From Bryobacterales bacterium KBS 96 (lineage in GTDB: Bacteria; Acidobacteriota; Terriglobia; Bryobacterales; Bryobacteraceae), in assembly GCA_000381625.1 (NCBI GenBank), contig KB906767.1, positions 2,458,629-2,522,628 on the forward strand: a DNA stretch of 64,000 bases, written 5' to 3'. Below are positions 3,125 to 24,809 of this stretch, one piece after another. The number at the start of each line of letters is the position of its first letter. Position 1 is the stretch's first letter. Made by a program: the position numbers and the translations under genes. A model generated the notes under the pieces. The model made no database searches. It saw only the letters and a program-made list of their open reading frames with translations, and was not told the DNA's origin.

Positions 3125-3151
3125 TTTCTTAAGTCCTTCCTGCTGAGCTTG

Positions 3152-3234: not shown

Positions 3235-3310
3235 CCTGCAAGGGGTGGCGTATCGAAGAATTTCAGCCGCCGCGAATGCGGCGTCAGCCTTTTCTCGCTT
3301 TGGATCATGC

Positions 3311-3577
3311 TTAGGCCGCAGATAAATGCGCTTTCGGCCGGCCCCGGCGCGCGGCCGTATAGGCAGCGGCATCGAGCATCTCCGGCCGCTCGGCGAGCCA
3401 TTTCTGATAATCTTTGTCCGCTTCGAAAATGTCCTTCAACGCGGCGGAAACGACGTAGCTGGGCGATGAGTCATTCAGGAATTTGGCGTAGGCATAAAGC
3501 TTTGCCACAATGTCCTTCCGCATCCGGAACTGGACAGTGTCGAACGGTGTTTTGTCTTGCGGTTGAATACGGGGCAT
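3311..3577 (-). CDS. Small DNA-binding-like protein of the transfer operon
   Basis: An 88-residue protein opening MPRIQPQDKTPFDTVQFRM. The ATG at 3577 has a good ribosome site (AGAGGAG, 5 nt spacing), so it is preferred over the upstream start. The segment FDTVQFRMRKDIVAKLYAYAKFLNDSSPSYVVSAAL looks like a ribbon-helix-helix fold (beta strand followed by two helices with a SPSYVV turn), which suggests a small repressor or relaxosome component. It ends with a basic tail (RRGRPK). It lies between virB8 and the repeat-bearing spacer, so it could bind those repeats. Fold assignment is by eye. Confidence 0.55.
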   Translation of the reverse strand: MPRIQPQDKTPFDTVQFRMRKDIVAKLYAYAKFLNDSSPSYVVSAALKDIFEADKDYQKWLAERPEMLDAAAYTAARRGRPKAHLSAA

Positions 3578-3603
3578 AATTCTCCTCTTCTGCTGGATAA
3601 AAA

Positions 3604-4293: not shown

Positions 4294-4304
4294 AAATCGA
4301 TCTC

Positions 4305-5267
4305 CTACGTGCAAACAAAACGGGTCGCCGCGCCGCGCACTGCGCTTCCGAGGCTCGTGCCGAAACCGCTCACCCCGCCCAACAATTCGTGAGCCAGATG
4401 CGGAACCTGAAACATGGACCAAATGAATGCGAACTGCAACAGGATCCAGGGCACCAGCAAGGCAAGGAGATGAGGAATGCTGTAGTCTCCGTGGATTGCG
4501 TTTTGCAGAAACCCGACAATTACCCGTACCCAGACGAACACAAACGCTGATGCGATTACTCGATAAAACGCGTAGACGAACATGAAATCAATCCATTTCC
4601 AAAACTTGTTCGCAAGCGAGGAAATCAAAAGGAGCGGAATGAATAGCGGCCCAAGCAATGTTCCGATTCCTGTCGCGATGAAGCCGAGAGTGCTGATGGC
4701 AAATAAAACGGCTTCAACGAGCGCCATAGAACCGATCACGATGTAATAAACGGCCACTTGGAAAATGTTGAGTGGCGAAGGCTGCTGGATGTTCGCAGCC
4801 AGGGAATTCACTTGGTTCGCGAAATCATTTAGAATGCTGAGATCAATCGTGCCGGAAATGGTACGGGCCGTGTACGTGAATACCTGATGAAAACTGAAGC
4901 TCGCTCCGGGCAACGGCTGGTTGTAGTAGTGCAGCAGAATGAGGCATCCGGCAAGCTTGCCCATAAATGCGATCAGTTCCCCTAAATCCACATGCGCGTG
5001 CCACATCGCGTAGGGATGCCACATCCAGCGGATGGCGAAACGAACGAGCTGAAAAGCCGCAATGGCGTTGAGCAGCGTCATCGCATCGCCCACAAATAAA
5101 TCGGTGTGCTGCGTCACGAGTTGATCTATGGACTGGCTGATCGAAGTAACGAAATCGATGGTCTGAGGCGTGATCGGGATCGGCCCCTTCGTCTGCGCAA
5201 GCAGACCCGTGGGAAACGCACCTAAGAATGCGAACAGAAAAGCCGTTTTTGTAATCGTCTGGGGCAT
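4305..5267 (-). CDS. Type IV secretion polytopic membrane protein VirB6/TrbL
   Basis: A 320-residue protein with an N-terminal signal-like segment (AFLFAFLGAFPTGLLAQ) and about six hydrophobic segments, including a large central block typical of the VirB6/TrbL family. These proteins form part of the inner-membrane DNA channel. The family call comes from topology, size and its place between the VirB5/TrbJ-like and VirB8 genes, since primary sequence in this family is poorly conserved. It starts 4 nt after the stop of the upstream gene without a strong ribosome site, so coupling is likely. Confidence 0.75.
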   Translation of the reverse strand: MPQTITKTAFLFAFLGAFPTGLLAQTKGPIPITPQTIDFVTSISQSIDQLVTQHTDLFVGDAMTLLNAIAAFQLVRFAIRWMWHPYAMWHAHVDLGELIAFMGKLAGCLILLHYYNQPLPGASFSFHQVFTYTARTISGTIDLSILNDFANQVNSLAANIQQPSPLNIFQVAVYYIVIGSMALVEAVLFAISTLGFIATGIGTLLGPLFIPLLLISSLANKFWKWIDFMFVYAFYRVIASAFVFVWVRVIVGFLQNAIHGDYSIPHLLALLVPWILLQFAFIWSMFQVPHLAHELLGGVSGFGTSLGSAVRGAATRFVCT

Positions 5268-5271
5268 GGGT

Positions 5272-6102
5272 TTATTGCGGGTCGTAATTGGTTAGCGCCG
5301 CGCCCACATTCGCCGGAGCCGTGGGTTCGCTGAACTGATAAGCGGTAGCCTTGGTCGCGGTATTCAGAGCGTTGGCGTGGAGGTTGCGCTGGTCTAAATT
5401 CGCGGCAAGCAACTGTTCCAGAATTTCCGCCTGCACGGCTTGGGTGCCTTGCTGCATGCGCATGTTCTGAAGCTGCGCTGCGTTCAGCAGATTCAACTGC
5501 TTGATTTCGGTGTTGTCGTCTGGATTTCCGCTCAATGCGGCTTGTTCGAGCTGATTGATCGCCTGGCCGTTCGTCTGTTGCTGTTGACGTACCGCGGCTA
5601 GCGTCGACATGGAGACCTGCCCGGTGGAATCCTGAATTTCCACCGCTGCGAGGCTCGACAAGTGTGAGCTATTTCCTAACGGCTCTCGCGCAAGAAATTC
5701 TCCCGTTTGGACTGGCACCGTGGCGAGCGACCAAGCGGTCGGCACAGCTTGGCCGTAGTTCACCGCCTGATTCCATACTGCCGTCTCGCCGTATCGATTA
5801 CCTACGTTGCTCCGCAACAGGGCAACGCCCCACGTTTTCCAGAACTGCTTATTGGTGTATTGCTCCAGGTTGAACTTGAGCATTTCGTACTGGGTTTTTG
5901 TCGTCTGATAAAGCTGCATTTCGCTCTGGACCATCTGCTCGTATTGACGAATCTGCTGAACGAGCTTTCCGACGGCGGTCGGGTCGAAAACGATATCACC
6001 AAAGCCGAATATCGCTTTAGCGGGCGGCGTGAACAGAAATCCGGTAGTCACCACGATGACTCCGGCGATTGTAAAAACGCGATGGCGCTGGTTTGCCATC
6101 AT
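5272..6102 (-). CDS. Type IV secretion minor pilus protein VirB5/TrbJ-like
   Basis: A 276-residue exported protein. It has a signal peptide (FTIAGVIVVTTGFLFTPPAKA, about residues 9-29) followed by FGFGDIVFDPTAVGKLVQQI, a hallmark of TrbJ-type VirB5 proteins, and then long glutamine-rich helices. VirB5/TrbJ proteins sit at the pilus tip or in the periplasm. The ATG at 6102 has GAGGAGG 8 nt upstream and overlaps the stop of the small membrane protein (TAATG). The 62-codon upstream extension is arginine-rich out-of-frame sequence and was discarded. Confidence 0.8.
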   Translation of the reverse strand: MMANQRHRVFTIAGVIVVTTGFLFTPPAKAIFGFGDIVFDPTAVGKLVQQIRQYEQMVQSEMQLYQTTKTQYEMLKFNLEQYTNKQFWKTWGVALLRSNVGNRYGETAVWNQAVNYGQAVPTAWSLATVPVQTGEFLAREPLGNSSHLSSLAAVEIQDSTGQVSMSTLAAVRQQQQTNGQAINQLEQAALSGNPDDNTEIKQLNLLNAAQLQNMRMQQGTQAVQAEILEQLLAANLDQRNLHANALNTATKATAYQFSEPTAPANVGAALTNYDPQ

Positions 6103-6296
6103 TAATGAATCCTCCTCGAAAGCACTCCTAAAAGCTCGGCGACGATAGCGACACCGGCCAGCAGCAGAACCCATATAAAGACGAATTTCCAGAACCCAAA
6201 CACGATGCGCATATAACGGTTGCGCACGCGCAGAAAGTAGTTCAGCTCGCGCTGCAGCTCTGGGCTGAGATCGGATCTGTAATTCCAAGTCCTCAT
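6102..6296 (-). CDS. Small membrane protein between VirB10 and VirB5
   Basis: A 64-residue protein: a charged N-terminus (about 28 residues) and one strong membrane helix (IVFGFWKFVFIWVLLLAGVAIVAELL, split here into hydrophobic halves around residue 40). Its ATG overlaps the virB10 stop (ATGA) and its stop overlaps the virB5 start (TAATG), so it is embedded in the operon by overlaps on both sides, strong evidence that it is translated. It has no lipobox, so it is not a VirB7-type lipoprotein. No family is recognised. A structural or assembly role in the secretion complex is inferred from context. Confidence 0.65.
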   Translation of the reverse strand: MRTWNYRSDLSPELQRELNYFLRVRNRYMRIVFGFWKFVFIWVLLLAGVAIVAELLGVLSRRIH

Positions 6297-7603
6297 AGGT
6301 CGCCCGGCATCGTATGGTTTTGATAAGCGGGCATCAAAAGATCGCCTGCGAGATAAATCTTGATCCGGGCTCGCTCGCGTACGATGAACGTCGGCAATTG
6401 ATTGAGAAAGTGATCTAGCACACGGGAGGAGTTCTCGGCCATGCTCTGCGAAATGCCCGAGCGCATGACGACCATCGGGTCATAGCCGTAACCGCCATAT
6501 CCATTCCCGATCTGTGCGACTCCGCCAATGGCCGCAAGCGCCAGTGAAGTGCCAAAAATCTGGAGGTAATGATGGTTCACCAGATCTCGAACTCCGGTCT
6601 CGCCGACCTGGTTCAGCCCGGTAAATTGATCGAGCGAAACCGAATACCCATCCGGCATGATGATGCGGTGAAAAGCGACGAACAGCCGTTGCTGGTTGCC
6701 ATTCACCACGGCATTGACTTTGCCCAGAACCCGCGAGCCTTGAGGGATTAAGAGCGTCCGGTTGTCATGGGCATAAACATCGGTTGTGACCATACAGTTC
6801 ACCGGTCCGGCGAAAACGCCGTTGATGCGGTTGGTCAGAACGGTTTCGATGATGTAGCCTTCAAACAACCGGTACGGCTTGCCGGTTGCGGAATTGACAT
6901 CGTAATGGGTGGGTTTCGATTCCGGCGTGTTCGGGACCTGCTGCTGGCCGGAAACGGGCAACTGCTCGGCGGTATTTTTCAATGGCTGGGAAACGCCGGT
7001 TACTGGGGCGGCCGCGGGGGCCTGGTCCGCTACGGAATTGTGCCCCTCACTTCGGAGATCCAGAGCCACATTCGACGCATGGAGGGCCTGCTCCTCTTTC
7101 TTGCGACGCTCGATTGCATCCTGCTCTGCCAGGCTGGAGGCACCCTGTGTAGAAGCCGGTTGATAGTATCCTGCGGCGGCAAGCTGCTGCTGTTGTCTCT
7201 GTAAAGCCGCGAGCGTATTGAGGTCCGTGCTTTGATCCGCGGAGGGATTGGCATTCGTCAAATTTGACACCGGCCCTTGCTGCGCGGCTTCGAGTGTCTT
7301 CTGTAACGCCTCTTTCTGTGCCTGGATACGCGCCATTTCCTGAGCCTCTTGTTGCGTTTGCCGCTCGAAGTTCGTGATATCGACAGTGCTGGCCGGGGCG
7401 CTCTCTGTTTTCGTTCGCGCCGCGCTCTTTTGCTGCAAATTGCGGGGACGGGGCCGCGTGAGCTCGGTAACGCCAATCAGTCCCAACAACGCAACGATCA
7501 CGCCGCCCACAAGTAGCGGTTTGTTCAACGGGCCGGAGGGTGGTTTCGCAGGCTCCTGCGGCGCGGAACTCGAATCGATTTGATGGATCGTTTCGTCGGG
7601 CAT
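6293..7603 (-). CDS. Type IV secretion core-complex protein VirB10/TrbI
   Basis: A 436-residue protein from the ATG at 7603 (a GTG nine bases upstream is also possible). It has a single membrane helix near residues 28-44, a long proline/glutamine/alanine-rich periplasmic linker, and the conserved VirB10 C-terminal domain beginning about residue 240 with FEGYIIETVLTNRINGVFAG and IPQGSRVLGKV. The final part contains the region forming the outer-membrane pore helices. VirB10 spans the envelope and couples cytoplasmic ATPases to channel opening. It follows virB9 with a 9-nt gap. Confidence 0.9.
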   Translation of the reverse strand: MPDETIHQIDSSSAPQEPAKPPSGPLNKPLLVGGVIVALLGLIGVTELTRPRPRNLQQKSAARTKTESAPASTVDITNFERQTQQEAQEMARIQAQKEALQKTLEAAQQGPVSNLTNANPSADQSTDLNTLAALQRQQQQLAAAGYYQPASTQGASSLAEQDAIERRKKEEQALHASNVALDLRSEGHNSVADQAPAAAPVTGVSQPLKNTAEQLPVSGQQQVPNTPESKPTHYDVNSATGKPYRLFEGYIIETVLTNRINGVFAGPVNCMVTTDVYAHDNRTLLIPQGSRVLGKVNAVVNGNQQRLFVAFHRIIMPDGYSVSLDQFTGLNQVGETGVRDLVNHHYLQIFGTSLALAAIGGVAQIGNGYGGYGYDPMVVMRSGISQSMAENSSRVLDHFLNQLPTFIVRERARIKIYLAGDLLMPAYQNHTMPGDL

Positions 7604-7612
7604 GGATTCCAC

Positions 7613-8452
7613 TCAGTTGCCGTTGCGTACTCGTGCGAAATTCATCTTTTGTTTGCCGATCGCCAGATAACCGGCATCGAGAATCTTCGGCACGGTATAA
7701 AGCCCGTTCGCGAACTCGTAGTTGATCAAGCTTGGCTTGCCATCTTTGATTTCGTAGAGCGCTGGTATTTCCTGCGGAGTAGCGCGAATATACGTGAACT
7801 TGTCATCGCGATAGATCGCAGACACTTCGAACGGCCCTTTCGCCGCCGCTCTCTGATCGAACGAATAGTCGAATTGCAGCTTCGCAGGATAGCTTGCGCG
7901 GAACTGTTCGGCTTCCGCTTTGGCCTTCTGCTGCGCTTCTTTCCGGGCGGATTCCGCTTGGCCTTCTGCCGCCGCAGCCTCTTGCTTGTATCTCTCGGCC
8001 ACGGTTGCATCCACAAACACCGGCGCTTTCTGGAGCCGGACCCGATTGCCGTCGTCTGCCGGTTGCAGGAACAGCTTCACATCCGAGACCGCGCCCTGTA
8101 CGTTCGATACCTCGGTGAAGCTCAGCGTGTACACACTTGCATGATCGGTCAGGATGTGAATATCGGTATGTGCGCCTTGCCTGGCGGGCTTCACGGTAAC
8201 AAAGTTCTCTGTGCCGTCGATCACCCAGTTATCCTTGTCGCCGCAATACACAGTCATGACCTTCTCCTGCTGTGGCAGGACAATCAGTGTAGTCTCGTGA
8301 ATCTGCGCGTTCACCGGAATCACGTCTTTGGCGTGCACGGCAATCGTCCGGCTCTCTTGGGCGACGGCGGCTCCGCCCGCCGGAGTAGCACTATCGGCGG
8401 CAAAGAGTTTCGCCGTCCCCAGTAAGCAAACAAGCGCGAATTCTTTTCTCAT
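7613..8452 (-). CDS. Type IV secretion core-complex protein VirB9/TrbG
   Basis: A 279-residue exported protein. It starts MRKEFALVCLLGTAKLFA, a Sec signal peptide, and continues with beta-rich sequence including the VirB9 pattern of an N-terminal domain (LPQQEKVMTVYCGDKDNW) and a C-terminal domain near FDYSFDQRAAAKGPFEV. VirB9 forms the outer layer of the core complex with VirB10 and, usually, a VirB7 lipoprotein, which is not seen here. A methionine five codons upstream is possible, but this start gives the better signal peptide. The gene is 11 nt downstream of virB4. Confidence 0.85.
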   Translation of the reverse strand: MRKEFALVCLLGTAKLFAADSATPAGGAAVAQESRTIAVHAKDVIPVNAQIHETTLIVLPQQEKVMTVYCGDKDNWVIDGTENFVTVKPARQGAHTDIHILTDHASVYTLSFTEVSNVQGAVSDVKLFLQPADDGNRVRLQKAPVFVDATVAERYKQEAAAAEGQAESARKEAQQKAKAEAEQFRASYPAKLQFDYSFDQRAAAKGPFEVSAIYRDDKFTYIRATPQEIPALYEIKDGKPSLINYEFANGLYTVPKILDAGYLAIGKQKMNFARVRNGN

Positions 8453-8463
8453 TCCCTCCCTCC

Positions 8464-10821
8464 TCAAATGGCTCCTGACGCCAACAGTTCGATTGCCTGC
8501 TCGCCGTGTGCTTCGATCGCCTGGCGCCGCTTCACTCGTTCCAGTCCTGAAGTGGTGAACCGCCAGTAACTCTTGGCATCGAGATTTAACTTCAAAACTT
8601 TCGAATAATCCGGCGTTTTCAACAGCACTTCACGCGCCCGCAGGGTGGTCAGCAAGTCGAGCTCTTTCGTATTCAGGTCGAAGAGCCGTGCGTACTGAGC
8701 CCGGTCTACGTTCGGGTTGGCAAGAAACATGGTCATCTTGCAGTTGTCCCGGATGAGCTCGGTCTGCGCTCCGAGGTCGCCCGCCGACTGCGTCATCAAC
8801 AGCACGCCGAGTAAGTGTTTGCGGCCCGTTTTGATTGCGGCATTCACGAAGTCCGCTACTTCGGGGTTCTGTAGGTACTTCCAGAGCTCATCGATGGCGA
8901 TCAGCTTGAACGCGCTGGCCAGCTTCGGATCGGTGATCACGCTCTGAATGCGGTAGAACAGCCAGTACAGCAAAGGCTGCACAACGTCGCCGTGCTCTTC
9001 TACGCCTTGCATGTCGAACACGACGAACTGCGAGAGTGTCAGCGTGTCGGCCGGATGATCGAACAGCGCTCCATACGGGCCGCCTTCCACCCATTTGCTG
9101 AGCCGCGACTTCAAATGCACTGGAAGCAGCGCATGAAGCGTTTGTAGCCGCAGCAAAGGCGTCCCGGCATATTGACGATACAAACCTGCGATGAGTTCAG
9201 CGAGCTGGTTCTCTTCACTGTGCGACCAGGAAGTGCCAGATCCCATCAGAAGTTTTAAGAAATTGAGCAGAAACTTGCGATTGTCCGCCGTATCAGCGAG
9301 CGAAAATGGATTGATCGAAAAGGACTGCTCTTCGAGCGTAAGCCTCAGAACAGAGCCGCCAAAATGTCTTGCGTTTTCCTCGAAGGAACCGCCGATATCG
9401 AAAGCAAAGGTGTAGCCGTTGTACTTCTGCGCATGTGCGCAAAGAAAATTGCCGAGCACCGACTTGCCGGTGCCGCGCGGTCCAAAGATTGAGATCCCGA
9501 ACGAGTGGTTATGGAAAGGATCGAAGAAAAACGGAACGCCCTGACGTGTCTCTAACGCCGCAAGGTACTCGTCGTCGATCTCGCGCGCTTGCAGGCTTCC
9601 GGCGTAAGGCGCATACACAAACGAAAGGTCCGCATAATGCGTGTTCTGTAGCCAAAGCCGACGCACGTTCAGCCGGTGATTGCCCGGCAGCATCGCGAAG
9701 TATGCGGCCAGTGCTCCATAAGTCTCCTCGACTGCCTCTGCTTCGTAAGTGCTCAGAACGCGATGCGCTTCGGCTGCGGCATGTTCAAGTTGCTGAGGAT
9801 CGGTTCCATGCAATAACAGCGAAAAAGAATACTTGCCGAAATAGCCGCCCTCAGCTTCGATCTGGACCAACGCCTTCTTCAGATCGCGAATGATGGTGCG
9901 CGCCGAATCGTCTTCCAGATCGGCATCGATCTCCTGAACCCGGCCGGTGGCTTGTGCCAGCACGGTGCCCGGCGAAAGGCGCTTGAAATTCCATAGAAAT
10001 CGGCGCTTTTCGCTCACCGCCTTACGGAGTTGGGGGTTCTGATTGCGTTTCCATTCGCTCCAGAGCACCAGATCGGCGGGAATCCCCGCCAGGTCGCGAA
10101 ACAGATTGGCTGTGGTAAAGCTCGGAAGTTCTTTCAGACTGAGAAGCTTGAGTTTGCGTTCATCGAGTGTCAGCCGTCCCTGGCGGTCCCAATTGAGTCG
10201 CGAGGCCACGGCCTGATAGTCAACCATCTGCGGAGACTTCAGCGGCACTCGCCCGGCTTTTTGCCAGTCGAGGTTCAACAGAAAACGGAAGAACCGAAAG
10301 ACTTCCTGCTGTTTCAGAATTCGCAGCGCAAATAGGTCTTCAAGGCTTTGCCGGAAGGATCTGGCTGTCACCAGAAGCTTGGTTATATCCTCGGAGCGAT
10401 TTTTATCCGAAGCACCACGCTGCCGTCGAATCACAGGAGGCTCATAGAGGATGACCAGATAAAGGTCTATCCGGCTGAGCCTGCCATTCAGAAATAGGGC
10501 ACGTTCCTGAATGACTTGCTCAACGGTGGCGCTTGTGTAACTCTCCTTGCGCGGGACGTCCGGCAATCCGGTTTTGATCAGGTATTGATAAAGCCGGAAC
10601 CGTTCGTCGAACAAACGGAAAGCCGCAACCAACGCGTGCGAGACCGATTCCAGCCGATCCAAGGTCAAGCACTCGTCGTCAATCCCGGCGAGTGACAGAA
10701 CTACTCCGCAGTCGCCCTGCCTGGTAATGAAGACTTCATCTGTCGCGAAGTACCGGACCGGAACGGTGCGATGGAAAGGCCGCGAGACCTGATAATCGCG
10801 GAGCAGGTTGCGGGCGGTCAT
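8464..10821 (-). CDS. Type IV secretion ATPase VirB4/TrbE
   Basis: A 785-residue ATPase with a CagE/TrbE-type N-terminal domain and a C-terminal P-loop domain: Walker A GPRGTGKS at 447-454 and Walker B FKLIAIDELW in the 600s, followed by AIKTGRKHLLGVLLMTQSAGDL, the signature of VirB4 proteins. It energises pilus assembly and substrate passage at the inner membrane. Its ATG overlaps the virB3 stop by 4 nt. Because VirB11 is missing from the visible cluster, VirB4 and the coupling protein may be the only secretion ATPases here. Confidence 0.93.
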   Translation of the reverse strand: MTARNLLRDYQVSRPFHRTVPVRYFATDEVFITRQGDCGVVLSLAGIDDECLTLDRLESVSHALVAAFRLFDERFRLYQYLIKTGLPDVPRKESYTSATVEQVIQERALFLNGRLSRIDLYLVILYEPPVIRRQRGASDKNRSEDITKLLVTARSFRQSLEDLFALRILKQQEVFRFFRFLLNLDWQKAGRVPLKSPQMVDYQAVASRLNWDRQGRLTLDERKLKLLSLKELPSFTTANLFRDLAGIPADLVLWSEWKRNQNPQLRKAVSEKRRFLWNFKRLSPGTVLAQATGRVQEIDADLEDDSARTIIRDLKKALVQIEAEGGYFGKYSFSLLLHGTDPQQLEHAAAEAHRVLSTYEAEAVEETYGALAAYFAMLPGNHRLNVRRLWLQNTHYADLSFVYAPYAGSLQAREIDDEYLAALETRQGVPFFFDPFHNHSFGISIFGPRGTGKSVLGNFLCAHAQKYNGYTFAFDIGGSFEENARHFGGSVLRLTLEEQSFSINPFSLADTADNRKFLLNFLKLLMGSGTSWSHSEENQLAELIAGLYRQYAGTPLLRLQTLHALLPVHLKSRLSKWVEGGPYGALFDHPADTLTLSQFVVFDMQGVEEHGDVVQPLLYWLFYRIQSVITDPKLASAFKLIAIDELWKYLQNPEVADFVNAAIKTGRKHLLGVLLMTQSAGDLGAQTELIRDNCKMTMFLANPNVDRAQYARLFDLNTKELDLLTTLRAREVLLKTPDYSKVLKLNLDAKSYWRFTTSGLERVKRRQAIEAHGEQAIELLASGAI

Positions 10822-11087
10822 GCGCCGCGTCCTCCCTGATACTTCGCCGGGTCATACGATCCGCCTTGCATGAGCGAAATTACCCAGAGCAGCGCAACCT
10901 GCGGATCGCGCCGCGTGACCGTTCTACCGAAAAGGGACAAGGCAAATAACAGCGCGAACGCCGTGATTTTCGAGATGGTCAGGAAGAACACGGCGGCCAG
11001 AAACAGAATCATCAAATAGATCTTCCAGTCGATCCCGAAGATTAACGGCGAGCGATTTAGCGCTCGAATTACAGTCCTTCTCTGCAT
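10818..11087 (-). CDS. Type IV secretion protein VirB3/TrbD
   Basis: An 89-residue inner-membrane protein with two adjacent hydrophobic helices (about residues 20-53) after the short motif NRSPLIFGIDWK, as in VirB3/TrbD proteins, which begin with a conserved RPxxxxG-like segment. AGGAG lies just ahead of the ATG. It overlaps virB4 by 4 nt, and virB3-virB4 adjacency or fusion is standard for this system. Confidence 0.82.
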   Translation of the reverse strand: MQRRTVIRALNRSPLIFGIDWKIYLMILFLAAVFFLTISKITAFALLFALSLFGRTVTRRDPQVALLWVISLMQGGSYDPAKYQGGRGA

Positions 11088-11883: not shown

Positions 11884-12471
11884 ATGGCATTTTTAATGAT
11901 TCCGGCGGATTACGAAGAAACGGCAAGCAGAATCGTGCCGATCTGTATTCGCACTGAGGACGATCGCGGGAATCGCATCGCCGACGGCTGGATTCAAGGT
12001 GTGGTGCGGGTGGCCGGCAACATTCGGCAACTTGCGCGAATTGTTCTGTTTGACGAATGGCGCTCGTCCGAATTGGCCGACGAAACGCTTCAAGAATTGT
12101 GGGCGGCACACGGGGAGGATGTAGGGAATCGCCCTCACAGCCGGGTCTACGCACATGCAAAGTGGAAGGCTCTGGACAAGCGCGCCGGAAGTGCGAGAGC
12201 CCGCAAGGGCATGGAATCCGAGTTGCTCGAACATATTCTGGCTTCCCTGCGCGACCCGCACAACTGGGGGAGCGAAGTTGAATGTCGCGAGTTCATAATT
12301 CGCCTTCAAGAACGGCTTTCTGAGCTCGGACTGGAGGATGTGAATCGGGCTTTGCGGTCGGCCATGTTCGATGAAGGCGAATTGAAGATCACCCCACGTC
12401 CTGGAGAATCCCGAAACACAGCCTCTCAGCGTTTCTGGCGCCAGCTTCGCCGCACCGCCCGCCTGCTGTAA
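11884..12471 (+). CDS. Sigma-70 region-2-like protein of the CHAT cargo block
   Basis: A 195-residue protein not matching a named family with certainty. The central part, about residues 56-100, follows the pattern of an ECF sigma factor region 2: SELADETLQELW resembles the acidic 'DLxQExFxxLW' helix, and VYAHAKWKALDKR resembles the 'WLxxIAxNxxLDxxR' helix. No obvious region-4 helix-turn-helix is seen at the C-terminus, which is basic (RFWRQLRRTARLL). The next gene encodes an anti-sigma-type zinc protein, which supports the sigma-like reading. A rightward AGGCGG is near the start. The function is inferred and unproven. Confidence 0.55.
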   Translation: MAFLMIPADYEETASRIVPICIRTEDDRGNRIADGWIQGVVRVAGNIRQLARIVLFDEWRSSELADETLQELWAAHGEDVGNRPHSRVYAHAKWKALDKRAGSARARKGMESELLEHILASLRDPHNWGSEVECREFIIRLQERLSELGLEDVNRALRSAMFDEGELKITPRPGESRNTASQRFWRQLRRTARLL

Positions 12472-12507
12472 ATTGCAATCTGCTGCTGACTATAATGACT
12501 GGGACGA

Positions 12508-13197
12508 ATGGCAGATGAAGAGGCGCGGAGGGCTTTCGATAAAGCGAAGGAAATCGTGCAGGAAGCCATCCTGCGTGGATTTCCAAATCCTGAACGTCGG
12601 GGTTGTCCCGACGCCACCGTACTAAAGCGCCTGGCGTCGTCGGAATTGCCTTCCGAGAATGATCCCGACTGGGATCATGTCACACACTGCTCTCCCTGTT
12701 ACAGCGAATTTCTCGATTTTCGTCAGCAAGTTAAGGCGACACAGCGCCGAGCTCACCGCAACAGGCTGATTACTGTAGCACTTGCAGCCGCGGCGGTAAT
12801 TGTCGTCGTGTGGATCTTTTTGGTGCGGTCCTCGCCTCCGCAGGAAATTTCCGCATATCTCGATCTCTCGCCGGTTGTGATCCTCCGAGGCGAGGAGCAG
12901 CCCACCCGCCCTAACTTCACTTTGCCGATAGGTGATCTGAAGCTAACCATCCGGCTACCGGTCGCGAGCCAGGAGGGCCGCTATCAAGTCGAACTCCTGC
13001 GTGAACTGGCTGCTGCTCCCGTGGCAACGGGCAGCGGTCAAGCTCATCTGTCCAATGGAATAACAACGCTTCAGGTGAGCCTAAGTACGGCGGCCCTTCA
13101 GCCGGGTCGCTACTACTTCGGCTTCCGGTCGGACGATTTGGACTGGACAGTAGTGTCCTGCGACCTGACCGCGAAAACCGCAGCCGGACCGAAATAA
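12508..13197 (+). CDS. Membrane anti-sigma-like protein with ZAS zinc motif
   Basis: A 229-residue protein. Residues 33-64 contain Cys33 and a H-x3-C-x2-C motif (H57, C61, C64), the ZAS zinc-binding signature of anti-sigma factors. A single membrane helix follows at about 89-105 (ITVALAAAAVIVVVWIF), then an extracytoplasmic beta-rich domain of about 120 residues. In the ZAS family the cytoplasmic zinc domain holds an ECF sigma factor and the outer domain senses a signal, often by regulated proteolysis. It lies 36 bp after the sigma-like gene. Two proteases (CHAT, S41) are encoded a little further on, which is suggestive. Confidence 0.72.
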   Translation: MADEEARRAFDKAKEIVQEAILRGFPNPERRGCPDATVLKRLASSELPSENDPDWDHVTHCSPCYSEFLDFRQQVKATQRRAHRNRLITVALAAAAVIVVVWIFLVRSSPPQEISAYLDLSPVVILRGEEQPTRPNFTLPIGDLKLTIRLPVASQEGRYQVELLRELAAAPVATGSGQAHLSNGITTLQVSLSTAALQPGRYYFGFRSDDLDWTVVSCDLTAKTAAGPK

Positions 13198-13261
13198 AGC
13201 ATTCCTTCACCTCGCTTGCTTTTTGAGCAATAATTTGCAAAATATCGAAAGGGAGTCGTTA

Positions 13262-13597
13262 ATGAGCCGATTTCGTTACCTAATTGGTTTCGCCATTGCA
13301 GTGCTTTTGCCCCTTGCGGGTTGCTCCCCTGCTCCCAATTCAGCATCCGGTAGCAAAATTATTCAGCAGATGCAGGCTGCTGGATCGGGTCCGTTAGATC
13401 ATGCTTCCAGCAACACGGTCTTCAATTGGTTTCAGGCCAATCAAGCGAGCCGAAAGACCTTGGCCGCCAGCGTCAACCAGCAGTGCGCTGACCTCAAGAA
13501 AGCTGCGCTGCCGGCAAGTTGGTCTGAAAGCCCCGAAGGACAGGTCTGCGCCGCTGCTCACGAATTCGTGACTGTACATGCGTATTACGGCCGATAG
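13262..13597 (+). CDS. Small hypothetical lipoprotein
   Basis: A 111-residue protein with a type II signal peptide: FRYLIGFAIAVLLPLAGC, lipobox LAGC with the lipidated Cys near residue 20. GGGAG lies just upstream of the ATG at 13262, so this start is preferred over an upstream in-frame codon. The mature part is small and helical with two further cysteines (QQCADL, GQVCAA) that could form a disulfide. No family is recognised. It is the last gene of the rightward sigma-like/anti-sigma group. Confidence 0.65.
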   Translation: MSRFRYLIGFAIAVLLPLAGCSPAPNSASGSKIIQQMQAAGSGPLDHASSNTVFNWFQANQASRKTLAASVNQQCADLKKAALPASWSESPEGQVCAAAHEFVTVHAYYGR

Positions 13598-13700
13598 ATG
13601 CGTCTCGACGCCGGTTTCACCTCTCATCGTCCTGGCTCCGGCCGACTGGGCGTCGGCGCCGCGAGGTTGCGATATGGAATCGTGCCGAAACGCGGATTCG

Positions 13701-14831
13701 TCAACGGTTATTTAACTTCCTATTCAACTCTTCCCTCCAACGCAATTCGACGGCCGGCCCGCCCCGCTTGCCTACTTCACCTAGAACAGCCTCAACGAAT
13801 GCTGGATGGACTTTGAGAGGATACAAATTAAACCACGGATATCTGTCGAGCAAATTCAGCGCCTCTTCAAACGAGCGAACGTACCCGGATTTCGAAGAGA
13901 ATTCTATGCCGTGTCGGTCCTCATCCGAAAGCATGTCATAGAGCGCAGCTTCGTTAGTTTCGATCCCGAACCGCCAATCCTCGTTGGCAGATCGTTGCCG
14001 TACAAGCGTGACCGAACCACCTTCGCCTCCGACTTTGAGCACGACTTCGCAGCGCACAATGTCAGAGGCCCGGATGATCGGCTTGGGATCTTCTTTCGTT
14101 GGCCTTTTTCGTTGGTAAAACCAAATGCCGTAGTCTAACATCGCCGCTGTGAGTCCCGGCGTCTGGGATCTCAGGACTTCATGTGCAGACAGAACCAGTG
14201 TCTCTGCAAAATTCGGGGTCACATCGTTTCTACCGAGCGCATCGGCAACGAAACGCACCACCATGCGGTCCGGTTTAATGGCTCCATCGTACCCAGCCAG
14301 CATCAAGAAATACTTCAGAGATATGCCACTGGACTGGCCAGGAATGGCTGTAATTGCGGAAACAAGGCGGTCAGGCGGATCGAACTTAACCTCTTTCGGA
14401 ATATCGGCACGGCCTTTAATATCACAAGACTGCAATCCTCGGGCGAAACGGTAGACAGCTTCAGCTTTCAGAATGCCCGATCTCGAAGATGTTCGTTGCC
14501 GATTTCGAAACACCTCGGCGGCAAGTCTTTCCCAATCCCCGCAAAAGGGGTCCAAGAGAGCGATGAATTCCTTTACTGTGTACTCTTGTTGATAATTCCA
14601 ATGAGACCATTTGCAAAAATCATCAACCGTTCTTTGGGTCGATTCATACCGCACACCGATCGAATACACCGCGTCGACGATGCACAACGGCAATGATTGA
14701 TATTGATCGTCGGATTCCTGCAAAAGTTTGGTCGGAGTCGGCCAGATTCCGCAAATGTGTGCAATGAGAGCATCTCGTTCTGACCTTAGCGTATCCATTT
14801 TTTGCTTTGAGGTGATCAACTCGCTCGCCAT
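13701..14831 (-). CDS. Hypothetical protein with helix-hairpin-helix/GPD-like segment
   Basis: A 376-residue protein from the ATG at 14831; a later ATG at 14798 is also possible. About residues 150-200 read AITAIPGQSSGISLKYFLML then IKPDRMVVRFV, which resembles the hairpin plus catalytic-Asp strand of HhH-GPD DNA glycosylases (IxVDTHVxRV), with the Asp of KPDR in the catalytic position. GLTAAMLDYGIWFYQ follows. The N-terminal ~100 and C-terminal ~110 residues are not recognised. The gene is divergent from the CHAT gene with about 70 bp between starts, so they may share control. A nucleic-acid role is inferred from the motif only. Confidence 0.55.
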   Translation of the reverse strand: MASELITSKQKMDTLRSERDALIAHICGIWPTPTKLLQESDDQYQSLPLCIVDAVYSIGVRYESTQRTVDDFCKWSHWNYQQEYTVKEFIALLDPFCGDWERLAAEVFRNRQRTSSRSGILKAEAVYRFARGLQSCDIKGRADIPKEVKFDPPDRLVSAITAIPGQSSGISLKYFLMLAGYDGAIKPDRMVVRFVADALGRNDVTPNFAETLVLSAHEVLRSQTPGLTAAMLDYGIWFYQRKRPTKEDPKPIIRASDIVRCEVVLKVGGEGGSVTLVRQRSANEDWRFGIETNEAALYDMLSDEDRHGIEFSSKSGYVRSFEEALNLLDRYPWFNLYPLKVHPAFVEAVLGEVGKRGGPAVELRWREELNRKLNNR

Positions 14832-14902
14832 TATATCCGGATGTACACGCACCTCGAGTGGAAATTCTGAAATAATTATGAACAATACGCGTCTGGAATT
14901 CG

Positions 14903-17503
14903 ATGGGGTTCCGCTGGGCTGGCAAGAAATGCGTTTTGCTTTTGTCCGCGATATGCCTTTTCTTCTCCTCTTCCTTGCTAAGTGCCGGAACAACTGAAGC
15001 GGCAGCTGCACTCAAGCAAGCCGAGCGTCTCGCGCTTCTCCGAAACTGGACGGCGGCGGCACCGTTCTACGCGACGGCGGAACGGGAGTTCAGCGCGGCC
15101 GGAGATGAGCAGGATGCCATGTTCGCACGAATCAGCCGACTGCGTGGTCAGTTGCCTCAAACGCCACTACTCAAGGCATCCCGCCGGCTTGCAGCGCTAT
15201 TGGACGATCCAATAGTCCAGCGTAACCCTCGGGTTCGCCTTCGTTGCCTGGCGGTTAAAGGTGACGTTGATCTCGACCTGGACCCCGAGTTTGCTTTGCG
15301 CGATTGGACCGAAGCTCAGTCGATTGCGAACCAGTTCGACAATAAAATTTGGGCAAATCGCGCCAAAGGCGAACTGGCAATCATTGCGTTTCTTTCCGGA
15401 AATCCGTTCAAAGCTGCGCAAAACATGTCTGACGCTCTGAAGGTGGCCGGAAGGCTCGGAGACACGGGTTCGGTCGTCCGGTATGAAGCACTCATGGGCG
15501 ATGGCATGGTCGAGTGGAAGAAATACGCACAGGCTCTGACGTACTTCAATGAAGCGCTGAGCGTAGCCCAACGAAATCCGGACATGCAAGATCCAATGCT
15601 GGTCTATTCAGGCAAGGTAGACGCCTTAATCGGTCTCGGTCGGATTGACGATGCGACGAATTTGCTCGATACAGCTCTTCACATTGCTCAAGCCAAGTCT
15701 GCCGTCGGATACCAGGCAGAGTTGCGGCTCAAATACGCAAGCGTCGATATCGACAGAGGATCTCGACAGGACGCTTTTCATCAACTAGAGCAGGCTCTCG
15801 CCCTGGCGAAGCAGGCGCAAGCGAGTAGGATCGAGGCTGAAGCTACATTTATGCTGGCCCAACTTCAGCTTGCGGAGGGGCATTTGAAGTTAGCGAGTGC
15901 GGCAATTACACAGAGCATCGACCGGAGCCGTGACATGGATGATCGCGAGCTCTTGCCTGCTTCTCTTGCAGAGGCCGGGCGGATTCAAGCGGCGCGAGGC
16001 AACTTTCGAACAGCTGACGCGTTCTTTGAGCAGGGGAGTGAAATTGCGGATGGTGTGATCGCGCATGTGCGCAGCTTAATGGGAACGGCTGAATTCATCG
16101 CGTCGATAGATGATCTGTATGCCGATCATATTCGACTTCACGCCGATCATTTTAAAAATTCGGCCGGCACCTTTGCGGCGATGGAATCTATCAGAGCGCG
16201 GTCCATAACCGATTCACTCACGGCAATTCCTCTCTCTGGAGTTCCCCGACCAGCTCGACCGACGGATGTAGAAAAGCACATTGCCGAGTTGCAACTCGCT
16301 CTTCTGCAAACTCGCTCCCCCAAAATACGCCGACGCCTTCTATCGGACTTGGACGAAGCAGAGGCAGAGCGCGGACCAGAAGTGGACATTCGAGGGCGGA
16401 TACTGCTACACGCAAATCCAGTCAGACTGGCAGAACTGCAGCGTATTTTGAAGCCAAACGAAGCCGTACTCGAATACTTTACGTCCGCCTCTTCGGCATA
16501 TTGCCTGGTTATTTCGCGACGAAAGGCCACACTCACCCGGCTGCCCGAACAAGACTTATCAAAGTTGATCCAGCGCCACCTTGCTTCAATAGCAAGTAAT
16601 GCCAATACCACCCCAACCGGCAGGGACCTCTATCATGCACTTCTGCCGCAGGCCGCGCGATCATTTTCAAACCTGATCATCGTCCCGGACCGGCTACTTT
16701 ATCGAGTTCCCTTTGAAACTCTTGCGGACGATCAGGGTCAAATGCTAATTACGAGCCGAACGATCTGGTATGCGCCATCGGCAACCGTGTTGTATTTGAT
16801 TAGAACTCGACCGCAAGGCCAAAATTTGCGGCCTTTGCTGGCGGTGGCATCGGGTCCGGCGGATACGGACAGCCCAGTGCCGGCGTTGCGCGGTGACCTG
16901 TCTCATGTTGAAGCCAAACCATTTCCTGAATTGAAAGCGGCAACCTGGGAGGTTCGGTCAATCGGGAAAATTGCTGGCAACAGAGCGGAAATCCTTACGG
17001 GTGCAAACGCAAGCGAAACGGCGTTAAAGAATGAGCCGCTGGATCAATATCGTATTCTGCACTTTGCCGTGCACGCGCTCAGCGATCCAAAATTTCCGTC
17101 GCGCTCTGGGCTTGTATTTGCGTCCGACAAAAAGGCCGGCGAAGACGGCATATGGCAACCTCGAGAAATACTGCAACGTCACTTCAATGCTCAGTTAATC
17201 ACGCTCTCGGCGTGCGATACGGCGAAGGGCAAGAACTTGGGAGTCGGCGGAAACATGAGCTTGGTGAATCCGTTTTTGGCGGCGGGAGGCAGGGCGGTAC
17301 TGGCAAGCTTATGGGACTCCAATGACCTCTTCACTCGTGCCCTGATGCAAGAGTTTTACGCGAAACTCTATGCGGGCGCCCTCGCCGCCTATGCGCTTCG
17401 TCAGGCAAAGCTTCGCTTGATTGAGCGTTACGGCGATCAGGCGGCTCCGGCACTCTGGGCCGGATTTGTTTTGACTGGAGAAAACGTTCAAATCAACCGA
17501 TGA
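14903..17503 (+). CDS. Secreted TPR-CHAT caspase-like protease
   Basis: An 866-residue protein. Residues 9-28 form a Sec-type signal sequence (CVLLLSAICLFFSSSLLSAG). Residues ~35-400 are helical tetratricopeptide-type repeats. A linker follows, and the C-terminal CHAT (caspase-HetF associated with TPRs) domain covers about 515-866. The catalytic dyad is intact: His724 in ILHFAVHA and Cys771 in TLSACDTA. CHAT proteins are clan CD cysteine peptidases; in some immune systems (for example type III-E Csx29) a TPR-CHAT protein cleaves a partner linked to a sigma factor. A sigma-like/anti-sigma pair lies nearby here, but the signal peptide points to the periplasm, so a direct parallel is uncertain. 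Its stop overlaps the S41 start. Confidence 0.85.
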   Translation: MGFRWAGKKCVLLLSAICLFFSSSLLSAGTTEAAAALKQAERLALLRNWTAAAPFYATAEREFSAAGDEQDAMFARISRLRGQLPQTPLLKASRRLAALLDDPIVQRNPRVRLRCLAVKGDVDLDLDPEFALRDWTEAQSIANQFDNKIWANRAKGELAIIAFLSGNPFKAAQNMSDALKVAGRLGDTGSVVRYEALMGDGMVEWKKYAQALTYFNEALSVAQRNPDMQDPMLVYSGKVDALIGLGRIDDATNLLDTALHIAQAKSAVGYQAELRLKYASVDIDRGSRQDAFHQLEQALALAKQAQASRIEAEATFMLAQLQLAEGHLKLASAAITQSIDRSRDMDDRELLPASLAEAGRIQAARGNFRTADAFFEQGSEIADGVIAHVRSLMGTAEFIASIDDLYADHIRLHADHFKNSAGTFAAMESIRARSITDSLTAIPLSGVPRPARPTDVEKHIAELQLALLQTRSPKIRRRLLSDLDEAEAERGPEVDIRGRILLHANPVRLAELQRILKPNEAVLEYFTSASSAYCLVISRRKATLTRLPEQDLSKLIQRHLASIASNANTTPTGRDLYHALLPQAARSFSNLIIVPDRLLYRVPFETLADDQGQMLITSRTIWYAPSATVLYLIRTRPQGQNLRPLLAVASGPADTDSPVPALRGDLSHVEAKPFPELKAATWEVRSIGKIAGNRAEILTGANASETALKNEPLDQYRILHFAVHALSDPKFPSRSGLVFASDKKAGEDGIWQPREILQRHFNAQLITLSACDTAKGKNLGVGGNMSLVNPFLAAGGRAVLASLWDSNDLFTRALMQEFYAKLYAGALAAYALRQAKLRLIERYGDQAAPALWAGFVLTGENVQINR

Positions 17504-18753
17504 GCCACGACGACCTGAATCGAAAAATTCGCGAACAGATCATTCGCCGAACCGTTCACACCGTACGACGCAAGCTGTACGATCCGGGGATGAATGGCGT
17601 GGACTGGGAGCAGGTCACCAATTCGCATCGTGCCCGTATTCTTGACGCCGAAACGCGCGACGAATTCGAAGCACAAATGAATGAAATGATTCGTGAGCTT
17701 CGCGTGAGCCATTCCGGTTTCTTTTCGGAATCATCTCCGCGCGCTTCGGCGAAGATCGCGATTGGGGCAACATTCTTTGCCGAGGGAAATCGATGGGTGT
17801 TTCAGGATGTTCATGGAGGCGGTCCGGCACACAAGGCCGGCATAGAGCCTGGCGATACGCTGCTCACGATTCAAGGCAGGACGTGGACAACGCCGGAAAT
17901 GCCCACATTCGCGCTCGGGAAGGACCTCGCTGTCGAGATTGAGCGGCGGAGCGGTGCACCGGATACTGTGAGAATTTGTGTTCCCGTTTCGAAGAAGAAG
18001 AATCGACCCTTGGTCGAAGTGAAACCGGCGAGCTGGACCGTCATGCCCGGCGGAATTGGCTACTTGAAGATTGCCATGTTCCCTGGCGTAGTTGGTGTGG
18101 ACCTCGCGCGGGACATTGATCGAGCGCTGCGCGAGATGGATTGCGACCGGCTTGTCATCGACTTGCGCGGAAATTCCGGTGGAGGCATGGGATGTTTGCG
18201 CGTCATGAGTTATTTAACGCCAGACCGGCTTGGAGTTGGGTATAGCGTGACCCGAAAGGACATCGAACGAACGGATTTCGAAAAACACTGTCTGCCGGTC
18301 TTCGACCGCATTCCCGATTCTAAGTTGGGTCTTATCCCCCTCGTGCTGCGATTTGCATCGCGCGGCCGGTCGGTTGCAGTATTCACCGAAAGAAAAGGAC
18401 CGCAACGATTCCACGGCAACGTTACCTTACTTGTGAACGAACACAGTGCGAGCTCAGCCGAGATGGTCGCCGCATTTGCCAAGGAGTACGGACTAGCGAC
18501 TATTGTGGGAACAAAAAGCTCTGGCCGCTTACTCGGCGGTGGCTCTTTCCGCGTAGGGCACGGTTACCGCGTTGCTTTGCCCGTTGTTGAATACAAGACT
18601 TGGCGCGACGTTCGGCTGGAGGGTGAAGGCGTCGAGCCAGATATTGCGGTGCCATTCGACCCGGCGGCGCTTCGAAACGGCAGGGATACGCAGCTGAATG
18701 CCGCAGCGGATGCTGTTGGTTGTCGCTCGGATCAGCGCGCCACGACAGGATAA
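17500..18753 (+). CDS. S41-family PDZ serine protease coupled to the CHAT gene
   Basis: A 417-residue C-terminal-processing-type protease. The PDZ domain is at about 90-165 (GGGPAHKAGIEPGDTLLTI), followed by the S41 catalytic domain with LVIDLRGNSGGGMG at 218-231, the nucleophile Ser318 in EHSASSAEM and the general-base Lys339 in VGTKSSG. All key residues are present. No signal peptide is visible, so it may be cytoplasmic, which contrasts with its exported-looking partner. The ATG overlaps the CHAT stop by 4 nt, so the two proteases are made together. It may process the CHAT protein or share its substrate (inference). The gene ends 23 bp from the convergent retron-associated gene. Confidence 0.85.
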   Translation: MSHDDLNRKIREQIIRRTVHTVRRKLYDPGMNGVDWEQVTNSHRARILDAETRDEFEAQMNEMIRELRVSHSGFFSESSPRASAKIAIGATFFAEGNRWVFQDVHGGGPAHKAGIEPGDTLLTIQGRTWTTPEMPTFALGKDLAVEIERRSGAPDTVRICVPVSKKKNRPLVEVKPASWTVMPGGIGYLKIAMFPGVVGVDLARDIDRALREMDCDRLVIDLRGNSGGGMGCLRVMSYLTPDRLGVGYSVTRKDIERTDFEKHCLPVFDRIPDSKLGLIPLVLRFASRGRSVAVFTERKGPQRFHGNVTLLVNEHSASSAEMVAAFAKEYGLATIVGTKSSGRLLGGGSFRVGHGYRVALPVVEYKTWRDVRLEGEGVEPDIAVPFDPAALRNGRDTQLNAAADAVGCRSDQRATTG

Positions 18754-23176: not shown

Positions 23177-23494
23177 ATGCAGAATCTCCCAGCAATTACC
23201 GCAACCCTGAACACCACCGCGACTCAGAATGATCGATTTCGAACGCCCGCTCGAACCCGCGAGCGGCGGACTCGCACGTCATTGCCGCCGCCCGATCAGC
23301 GCTCATGGCTCCTGCTGACCGAGGCCGCCGGCCTCATCGGCTGTAGCAAAGCCACCGCACATCGCCTCCGCCGCGGCGAAATCGACGGCGTGCCTCGCCT
23401 GCCGACCGTGCAGGTCGCCAAACGCAAATGGGTTGTGCTGAAGGCATCCTTGGAGCAATGGCAGCGGGAAAATGAACGACTCTCCGCCTCCTGA
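23177..23494 (+). CDS. Excisionase-like helix-turn-helix protein
   Basis: A 105-residue protein. About residues 43-100 form a MerR/excisionase-type winged helix: WLLLTEAAGLIGCSKATAHR then the wing VPRLPTVQVAKRKWVVLKASLEQW. The N-terminal ~40 residues are polar and threonine/arginine-rich. Its 3' end overlaps the integrase reading frame by 23 nt. Position directly before a tyrosine recombinase supports a recombination directionality factor role in excision of the element, although such proteins can also be plain transcription regulators. Confidence 0.72.
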   Translation: MQNLPAITATLNTTATQNDRFRTPARTRERRTRTSLPPPDQRSWLLLTEAAGLIGCSKATAHRLRRGEIDGVPRLPTVQVAKRKWVVLKASLEQWQRENERLSAS

Positions 23495-24689
23495 TATCGT
23501 CAAATCGAGTCCGCAAAGCGCTTCAGAGACGCACGGAAAGAGTGCGTTGATGAGCAAAAGACGAAAAACGAGGAGATATCAGCATGGTTCACTTTGTGAA
23601 TCGCCCGACAAGAAGCGATGGATCGTAAAGTTCTACTACGCTCCCGGCAAGCAAACTTCAAGAACGCTGGGGCCGAAAACCAAAATTAGCCGCAGACAGG
23701 CTGAAATGATGCGGGACGACCTGGTTCGCCCACTGAATCAAAGCCCGTTTCGCAGTCTCGGCAAAGAAACGTTCGAGCGATTTGTCGAGGATGTTTTCTT
23801 CCCGATCAAACTCGACACGGGAGAGTGGCGCGAGAACACCGCGAAGGAGAGTATGCGCGAGATTCGCAAACACATCGTCGCTGATGTCGGCGAAGTTCGC
23901 TTCGAAGAGCTCACCGCTGCCCTTCTGCGCGCTCTCTTAAAGAAGAAGGCGGAGCAGGGGCTTGGCCGCCAAACGCTGAATCATCTGCGGTTCTATCTCA
24001 CCGACATCTGTAAGTCCGCAATAGCCGAAGGCTATCTGACGAACAACGTCAGTGAAGGGCTGAAACCGCCGGCGAAGGTGTTAAAGCCGAGTGCTCCCAA
24101 ACGGGTCGCCACTTTAGAACACTACGCCGAAGCCTGGTCGTTGCTGGACGAACGTGAGCGATTGTGTTTCGATCTGGTGATGTTCGCGGGAATGCGGGAA
24201 TCGGAGGCGTTCGCGATCTGGTGTGGCGACGTGGCGGAAGACGGTATCCATATCGAACGGAGTTTTTACAAGGGTTCCTATGGACCGCCGAAGACACCCA
24301 AGAGCGACCGGATTGTCGGGGTTCCCGATGAAATCATGGAACGCTTGCAATCCTGGATCTCGCGCCTACCGGTAAACGATCCAGCGGCGTGCGTGTTTCC
24401 ATCTTCGAAATTGATAAAGCCGATTTGGCCAGAAAGCCTGCTGGGCAAATACGTGCGTCCGCGGCTGCGGCCGGCAGGTCTCGGTTGGATCAATTTCGAG
24501 GTACTGCGCCGGTCGCACTCGACGCTACACAAGCGCCGGAAATCAGACCCCAAGATCATTGCCGACCAGCAAGGTCATGGGATGCGAACCCACTTCGAGG
24601 AGTACATCCAGAGTGAGGTCGCGGAACGGAAGGCGGAAGCCGCGAAGCTTTACGCCGATTTTATGGGTGTGTTTCGCAAACGAGGTTAA
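23472..24689 (+). CDS. Tyrosine recombinase (element integrase)
   Basis: A 405-residue integrase, or 379 residues if the ATG at 23550 is used. It has a basic N-terminal arm-binding region, a SAM-like core-binding domain (about 95-205) and a catalytic domain (about 210-395) with the expected residues: Arg242 (AGMRESEAF), Arg346 and His349 (LRRSHS), His369 (QQGHG) and nucleophile Tyr378 (FEEYI). Every catalytic position is present, so it should be active. It faces the tRNA-Gly 3' end 45 bp downstream, the usual arrangement for an integrase that uses a tRNA gene as its target. Confidence 0.92.
   Translation: MNDSPPPDIVKSSPQSASETHGKSALMSKRRKTRRYQHGSLCESPDKKRWIVKFYYAPGKQTSRTLGPKTKISRRQAEMMRDDLVRPLNQSPFRSLGKETFERFVEDVFFPIKLDTGEWRENTAKESMREIRKHIVADVGEVRFEELTAALLRALLKKKAEQGLGRQTLNHLRFYLTDICKSAIAEGYLTNNVSEGLKPPAKVLKPSAPKRVATLEHYAEAWSLLDERERLCFDLVMFAGMRESEAFAIWCGDVAEDGIHIERSFYKGSYGPPKTPKSDRIVGVPDEIMERLQSWISRLPVNDPAACVFPSSKLIKPIWPESLLGKYVRPRLRPAGLGWINFEVLRRSHSTLHKRRKSDPKIIADQQGHGMRTHFEEYIQSEVAERKAEAAKLYADFMGVFRKRG

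Positions 24690-24734: not shown

Positions 24735-24809
<75 letters not shown>

Follow-up and report, generated by a model that had tools for sequence, protein, structure and literature searches.

Positions 11,884 to 18,753 of a 64,000-nucleotide stretch of DNA from Bryobacterales bacterium KBS 96 (contig KB906767.1; below, the window, G000:C1:2458629-2522628 within a 6.69-Mb genome) encode a TPR-CHAT protease and an S41 protease close to a ZAS-type anti-sigma protein and a sigma-like protein, orf1. The association of these four genes is a real conserved module. An initial annotation of the window had taken their co-occurrence as suggestive of protease-controlled transcription and had named co-conservation as the check. 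The check was run, and across Acidobacteriota the four genes do keep together, in more than one order, which makes protease-controlled transcription a sound hypothesis. We tentatively propose, with somewhat less than even confidence, that an integrative conjugative element carries them as a sigma/anti-sigma switch served by two dedicated proteases, in which proteolysis of the anti-sigma protein would free the sigma factor for genes of the element.

Of 121 confirmed loci in a genome collection, the analysis kept the best 80. S41 genes identical over the last 150 residues were merged, giving 100 distinct S41 genes, and sigma genes sharing an identical 200-base stretch were merged, giving 74 distinct sigma/anti-sigma pairs; loci with too little flank were excluded from the stated denominators. 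A same-strand CHAT gene lies within 600 bp of the S41 gene in 80 of the 83 distinct S41 genes having at least 1 kb of flank on each side. The three exceptions have CHAT on the opposite strand (L137) or more distant (L087 and L094). An anti-sigma gene occurs within 8 kb of 38 of the 44 distinct S41 genes with at least 7 kb of flank on each side, and a sigma-like gene stands beside it in 33 of these 38 loci (family F4 in 26, F18 in 5, and F7, the family of orf1, in 2). The gene orders are sigma–anti-sigma–CHAT–S41, sigma–anti-sigma–S41–CHAT, and CHAT–S41 facing sigma–anti-sigma. As an own-genome control, KBS 96 has three CHAT and six S41 genes, among which the window pair alone is adjacent. These two genes are indeed coupled by overlap, as annotated: CHAT ends at 17503 and S41 starts at 17500, with 4 shared bases.

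Among 150 family genomes, that of KBS 96 included, relatives of orf1 were found in 8, of S41 in 28 and of the anti-sigma protein in 32; S41 and the anti-sigma protein occur together in 25 (Fisher p 5e-19, which serves as a guide alone because the genomes are related). S41 is present in 12 of 297 genomes of a phylum draw (E ≤ 1e-40), so the module is patchy. A plasmid collection yielded no S41 relatives (E ≤ 1e-15) and no anti-sigma relatives (E ≤ 1e-3). Close S41 relatives lie on contigs of Bryobacterales, Bryobacteraceae and other Acidobacteriota. All four parts are found in the cultured Acidipila rosea, Silvibacterium bohemicum and Edaphobacter lichenicola; in E. aggregans, the sigma, anti-sigma and S41 genes lie on a contig ending there. 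All kept loci but one are titled Acidobacteriota (79 of 80; the remaining one, L143, is labelled Chloroflexi) and many are mobile. Shared descent inflates the counts, and the four genes might be unrelated island cargo inherited together by chance. We regard such hitch-hiking as highly unlikely, since the association holds for S41 relatives as little as 35% identical to the window protein and survives several gene orders, three sigma families and differing genes between the units.

The TPR-CHAT protein (866 aa) matches Pfam CHAT (PF12770) with an E-value of 2.1e-56 and carries TPR repeats. The alignments A1, A2, A3 and A5 contain 33, 30, 28 and 11 rows, chosen from the retrieved loci with most partial genes excluded. 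All 30 aligned relatives retain the catalytic residues H724 and C771, in keeping with the annotated active-looking protease. The annotated Sec signal is borne out as a prediction: the N-terminus resembles one by eye, and 49 of 70 CHAT relatives have a strongly hydrophobic N-terminal segment at a strict cut of a hydropathy heuristic, which was used here in place of SignalP. The other CHAT proteins among 40 rows inspected appear by eye to have weaker signal peptides. To our knowledge, TPR-CHAT proteases are found in many bacteria, and few of their substrates are known.

The S41 protein (417 aa) matches Pfam Peptidase_S41 (5.7e-27) and, over the cut-off, Tricorn_C1 (PF14684, 1.4e-9), and has a PDZ-like region. 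Half of the catalytic pair assigned to it in the initial annotation holds: S318 is Ser in 31 of 33 relatives, whereas K339 is not conserved (Lys in 13 of 33). Position 343, which we take, from its expected place in Prc, to be the catalytic Lys site of Ser-Lys S41 enzymes, is Arg in the window protein and Lys in 4 of 33 relatives. Ser-Lys catalysis of the S41A type (C-terminal processing peptidase) was rejected on the counts at these two positions. H71 is His in 28 of 33 relatives and E374 is Glu in all 33. The S41 profile matches tricorn chains of 1045-1071 residues, with Ser and Glu at matching profile positions; that S318, H71 and E374 correspond to the tricorn residues is our assumption, made from tricorn numbering and the profile ranges. 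The retention of Ser, His and Glu, together with the profile match, suggests a Tricorn/CPAF-like enzyme with Ser-His-Glu catalysis. Like S41 peptidases of that type, the protein combines Tricorn_C1, PDZ-like and S41 regions; unlike tricorn, it is short, and some members are without the His or the Ser. By the same heuristic, a strongly hydrophobic segment at the N-terminus is absent from all 100 S41 relatives.

In the anti-sigma protein (229 aa), the zinc residues C33, H57, C61 and C64 are invariant in 28 of 28 aligned relatives. We take HX3CX2C with an upstream Cys to define the ZAS zinc motif, and the protein, annotated as ZAS anti-sigma, has this motif. The AlphaFold 2 (AF2) model (predicted local distance difference test, pLDDT, 92.9) has helices in 2-108 and strands in 113-221, the latter forming a beta sandwich, and a hydrophobic stretch can be seen by eye in the 28-row alignment. 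The protein is accordingly modelled with a cytosolic zinc domain, one predicted transmembrane helix and a putative outer Ig-like beta domain; a single transmembrane segment plus an extracytoplasmic domain is not required of all ZAS proteins. The outer domain has many equally good structural matches, and no function was drawn from them. No anti-sigma zinc-finger family is among the matches of the 28 members at E ≤ 0.1, the NCBIfam antisigma model scores below its cut-off (E 0.0063, 16.5 bits vs. 100), and neither this protein nor orf1 has a useful Pfam match. From their N-termini, export is predicted for CHAT and a cytosolic location for S41, which would leave one protease on either face of the membrane crossed by the anti-sigma protein. 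The annotated remark that the Sec signal on CHAT alters the compartment logic is right as far as prediction goes. Anti-sigma versions matching the zinc domain alone occur at four loci (L039, L040, L155 and L157), none of which shows CHAT or S41 in the visible sequence; among the four genomes concerned, G034, G066 and G089 lack a close S41. These versions lend weak support to the switch set out below.

Orf1 (195 aa) had been annotated as sigma-region-2-like. The likeness is upheld by its homologues and not by a direct sigma model match. The F7 profile (11 aligned genes) aligns with that of the sigma-like family F4, which adjoins the anti-sigma gene in other loci, with an hhalign probability of 98.7 and E 2.4e-16 over 173 columns; F4 in turn aligns with F18 at a probability of 97.1. 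One F18 member exceeds the cut-off of the extracytoplasmic function (ECF) sigma model TIGR02937 (58.4 bits vs. 42.9). The same model matches 8 of 13 F4 members at E ≤ 0.01 (best 9.9e-8), the first F4 member scoring 18.4 bits against the cut-off of 42.9. Judged by these profile links, orf1 is homologous to ECF sigma factors via one intermediate family, F4; it is likely a divergent ECF-like sigma factor and may act as one. The AF2 model of orf1 has pLDDT 76, and in VIA the six top-ranking rows are all ECF sigma factors (sigma2) with Z 5.0-6.2, values near noise for helical bundles; Foldseek gave no match under E 1. The names alone of two NCBIfam models, NF058625 (GFO_1088, ECF sigma) and NF058627 (GFO_1087, S41 peptidase), hint that sigma and S41 genes are neighbours in another organism.

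In the switch that we propose, the anti-sigma protein would be the latch, its cytosolic zinc domain holding ECF-like orf1, with one membrane pass and the Ig-like domain outside. The exported TPR-CHAT protease would sense a partner or signal via its TPRs and cut the anti-sigma protein in its outer portion. What remains inside would then be removed by the S41-PDZ protease, cytosolic and tricorn-like, and the released sigma factor would transcribe genes of the element, the divergent conjugation operon being the first candidate. We infer the cutting of the anti-sigma protein by the proteases, the order of the cuts, the role of orf1 as a sigma factor, and the target genes. A more specific form, in which conjugative elements of Acidobacteriota time their transfer with a transmembrane sigma switch of their own, with the caspase-like TPR-CHAT protease as outer gate and the tricorn-like S41 as inner gate, so that an envelope or mating signal leads through proteolysis on both sides to transcription of the divergent transfer operon, seems to us unlikely.

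The conjugation operon enters the proposal through the setting of the block. Judged by its gene content, the block lies at tRNA-Gly within one integrative conjugative element or several arranged in tandem, in agreement with the mobile element of the initial annotation; genes of a type IV secretion system (T4SS), an integrase and tRNA-Gly lie beside it, and VirB11 and a TrwC-type relaxase lie directly left of the window. A T4SS gene is found within 3.5 kb upstream of sigma in 20 of the 74 distinct pairs, divergently in 19. Where at least 3.5 kb is visible upstream, the count is 15 of 51 (14 divergent), and for F7 sigma genes it is 7 of 11, all divergent. The 150 family genomes contain 43 VirB4 places, 10 of them within 5 kb of an anti-sigma gene (0.09 expected) and 16 within 40 kb (0.70 expected); 26 have no anti-sigma gene on the same contig. 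Anti-sigma genes thus stand beside conjugation genes far above expectation, and the mobile setting is more than incidental.

Several observations weigh against the proposed switch. Relatives share descent, so the counts are not independent, and the nine rows of the VirB4 model A8 all come from loci near the module, so those places were found by construction. Upstream of sigma, 36 of the 51 pairs with at least 3.5 kb visible show no T4SS gene, and conjugation therefore cannot be the sole target. Orf1 has no sigma match in Pfam (E ≤ 1) or NCBIfam (E ≤ 0.1), and F7 compared directly with F18 gives a weak result (probability 10). H71 is absent in 5 of 33 S41 relatives and S318 in 2 of 33. The zinc-only case is thin: both L039 and L040 are short contigs (4-5 kb), L039 has two anti-sigma copies of which one is truncated where the contig ends, the zinc-domain match of L157 carries a stop codon, and genome G050 has a CHAT-S41 pair elsewhere. 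The membrane-type anti-sigma genes of L164 and L166 have no CHAT or S41 in view. Finally, 6 of the 44 well-covered CHAT-S41 loci have no anti-sigma gene within 8 kb; at one of them, L079, such a gene lies about 13 kb away.

The upstream regions add to these points. A gapped expectation-maximisation (EM) search of 52 CHAT-first and 44 sigma upstream regions revealed no consistent ECF promoter motif. Its log-likelihoods exceed those of shuffled controls (61.2 vs. 28.5-35.9 and 54.9 vs. 30.1-35.3), the controls being lenient because they kept base composition alone and had 15 restarts against 50; the EM sites are at scattered positions, partly within signal-peptide codons. In the upstream alignment of F7 sigma genes, GTGNTATATT is exact in 6 of 9 (L035, L036, L037, L039, L041 and L043) and nearly matched in L038, while the fit is poor for the window and L040. 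Most F7 sigma genes have a conserved extended -10-like element resembling TGTGNTATATT upstream (e.g., L035 8640-8772 and L037 8650-8836), with TTGAC ahead of it in L037 and L039. This element looks like a housekeeping promoter, and autoregulation is thus unsupported there. A leader stretch around CTCTGTAGGCCGCC is common to L035, L037, L038 and L043.

The six loci without a nearby anti-sigma gene also bear on a different arrangement, in which the sigma/anti-sigma pair senses the envelope, either alone or helped by proteases of the host, while the sigma factor drives CHAT and S41 as effectors of envelope quality control or killing. It would likewise suit the frequent layout in which CHAT-S41 stands apart and faces the sigma unit, a position open to a target operon. 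We consider this chief alternative somewhat unlikely. An anti-sigma gene is present in 25 of the 28 genomes having S41; of the seven genomes with an anti-sigma gene and no S41, three show zinc-domain matches alone, and in G071 and G121 the anti-sigma gene adjoins a CHAT that is fragmented or lies where the contig ends. Nor does a consistent promoter motif link the two units.

Defence genes in the surroundings raise the possibility of an anti-phage or anti-element role, in which infection or DNA entry would activate CHAT, as in Craspase, and the proteases or the sigma regulon would protect or kill the cell. A 1388-aa NB-ARC-TPR protein is encoded between the anti-sigma and sigma genes in L036 (8552-12715), on a related element. 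The window itself, at 18777-22810, holds type VI retron-like genes for a reverse transcriptase (PADLOC RT_VI, 4e-91) and two HTH_VI proteins (5e-32 and 1e-30), together with a 604-aa protein matching the phage defence candidate PDC-S71 (1e-118). Left of the window, L169 (61-13339) has DISARM-type genes (best PADLOC matches DrmD, 3e-142, and DrmMI, 6e-121). According to excerpts of PMC10028731, moreover, a TPR-CHAT protease acts with a CRISPR effector in type III-E. Such a role is decidedly unlikely, however, in that CHAT is predicted to be exported, defence cargo is generally common on mobile elements, and CHAT is the sole protein of the four with a PADLOC match (E ≤ 0.01), to a generic TPR model.

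A functional parallel to the proposed sigma/anti-sigma switch is Craspase, as the initial annotation had suggested. Excerpts of PMC10028731 describe, for Craspase/CASP (Csx29, Csx30 and CASP-sigma), a TPR-CHAT protein whose locus also encodes an ECF-like sigma factor and its inhibitor, and a CHAT cleavage that relieves sigma inhibition. The parallel would be functional only. Membership of Csx29 was rejected: the window protein scores 12.4 bits with NF041237, against a cut-off of 300. In contrast to Craspase, the CHAT protein of the module has a predicted signal peptide, the presumed substrate and inhibitor is a membrane ZAS protein, and a second protease, S41, is fixed beside CHAT. The DegS/RseP-RseA-sigma E system, as outlined in the same excerpts, also has a membrane anti-sigma factor with a cytosolic sigma-binding part and successive proteases, features that are proposed here. 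Unlike in that system, the candidate proteases are CHAT outside and a tricorn-like S41 inside, encoded near sigma and often on mobile elements. For ECF54, excerpts of PMC8999054 report carboxypeptidase, subtilase and CHAT proteins conserved in the genetic context and a proposed proteolytic control. ECF54 is described there without an anti-sigma factor, whereas the module has a conserved ZAS anti-sigma gene adjoining sigma; by that description, the module is set apart from ECF54.

No description of the four-gene unit was found in the literature searched (titles and abstract openings, with most subscription journals outside the coverage). The module offers a conserved candidate substrate for CHAT, the membrane anti-sigma protein, and a named partner protease, with cultured carriers. 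Cutting of the inhibitor would switch genes on, as the make-up of the unit suggests. Should conjugation be under this switch, mobile-element transfer would have a kind of control not found in the literature searched.

The features of the locus and its surroundings are collected in Table 1. The plus strand of 11884-18753 has five open reading frames (ORFs): orf1, the anti-sigma gene, a small lipoprotein gene, and the CHAT and S41 genes. They had been annotated as one block. The genes are present as listed, but a minus-strand ORF of 436 aa (likely true start, by eye, about 14831) sits between the lipoprotein and CHAT genes, so that the plus strand holds two units or more, with the sigma/anti-sigma unit split from CHAT-S41. 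This ORF has no match in Pfam, NCBIfam or PADLOC (E ≤ 1, 0.1 and 0.01, respectively). The lipoprotein had been counted among the members of the protease/sigma set, a role that its relatives leave unsupported: the four that were found (L035, L036, L038 and L049) all sit in loci with T4SS genes, and it probably belongs, on this genomic context, to the conjugation machinery rather than to the switch.

Table 1. Features of the locus and its surroundings (window positions)
Feature	Position	Strand	Basis
Orf1, likely divergent ECF-sigma-like protein, F7 family, 195 aa	11884..12471	+	hhalign to F4 family
ZAS-type membrane anti-sigma protein, 229 aa	12508..13197	+	invariant zinc residues, AF2 model; topology predicted
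Small lipoprotein	13262..13597 (formal ORF from 13223)	+	LAGC lipobox by eye
Hypothetical gene, cargo, between two units	13701..14831 (formal ORF to 15011)	-	ORF listing
TPR-CHAT protease, predicted exported	14903..17503	+	Pfam CHAT, H724/C771
Tricorn_C1-PDZ-S41 protease, predicted cytosolic	17500..18753	+	Pfam, conserved catalytic residues
Conjugative T4SS: VirD4/TrwB, VirB8, TrbL/VirB6, TrbI/VirB10, CagX/VirB9, VirB4, VirB3	849..11087	-	Pfam; divergent from orf1
Two further ORFs of T4SS region	5272-6288, 11105-11425		ORF listing
Tyrosine integrase of element	23472..24689	+	Pfam Phage_integrase; 45 bp from tRNA-Gly
tRNA-Gly(CCC), probable integration site	24735..24809	-	ARAGORN

A partial copy of the 3' half of tRNA-Gly lies 172 kb away beside an integrase-like sequence, at a place where ARAGORN calls no tRNA. 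The S41 family has another, shorter member (G000:C1:2364155-2364916, L072) between the two tRNA-Gly end copies, with no CHAT match in the surrounding 19.5 kb. In L169, a large helicase-like ORF stands beside the relaxase region. Between the S41 and anti-sigma genes, L107 has an SbcC/SbcD-like pair and L109 an XRE and metallopeptidase pair, both by sequence impression alone. Proteins of one family, about 1050 aa long, are encoded near the module in L050, L062, L067, L071 and L073. The L050 member is an outer-membrane beta barrel with CarboxypepD_reg, which may be compared with the carboxypeptidase neighbours of ECF54 in the excerpts of PMC8999054.

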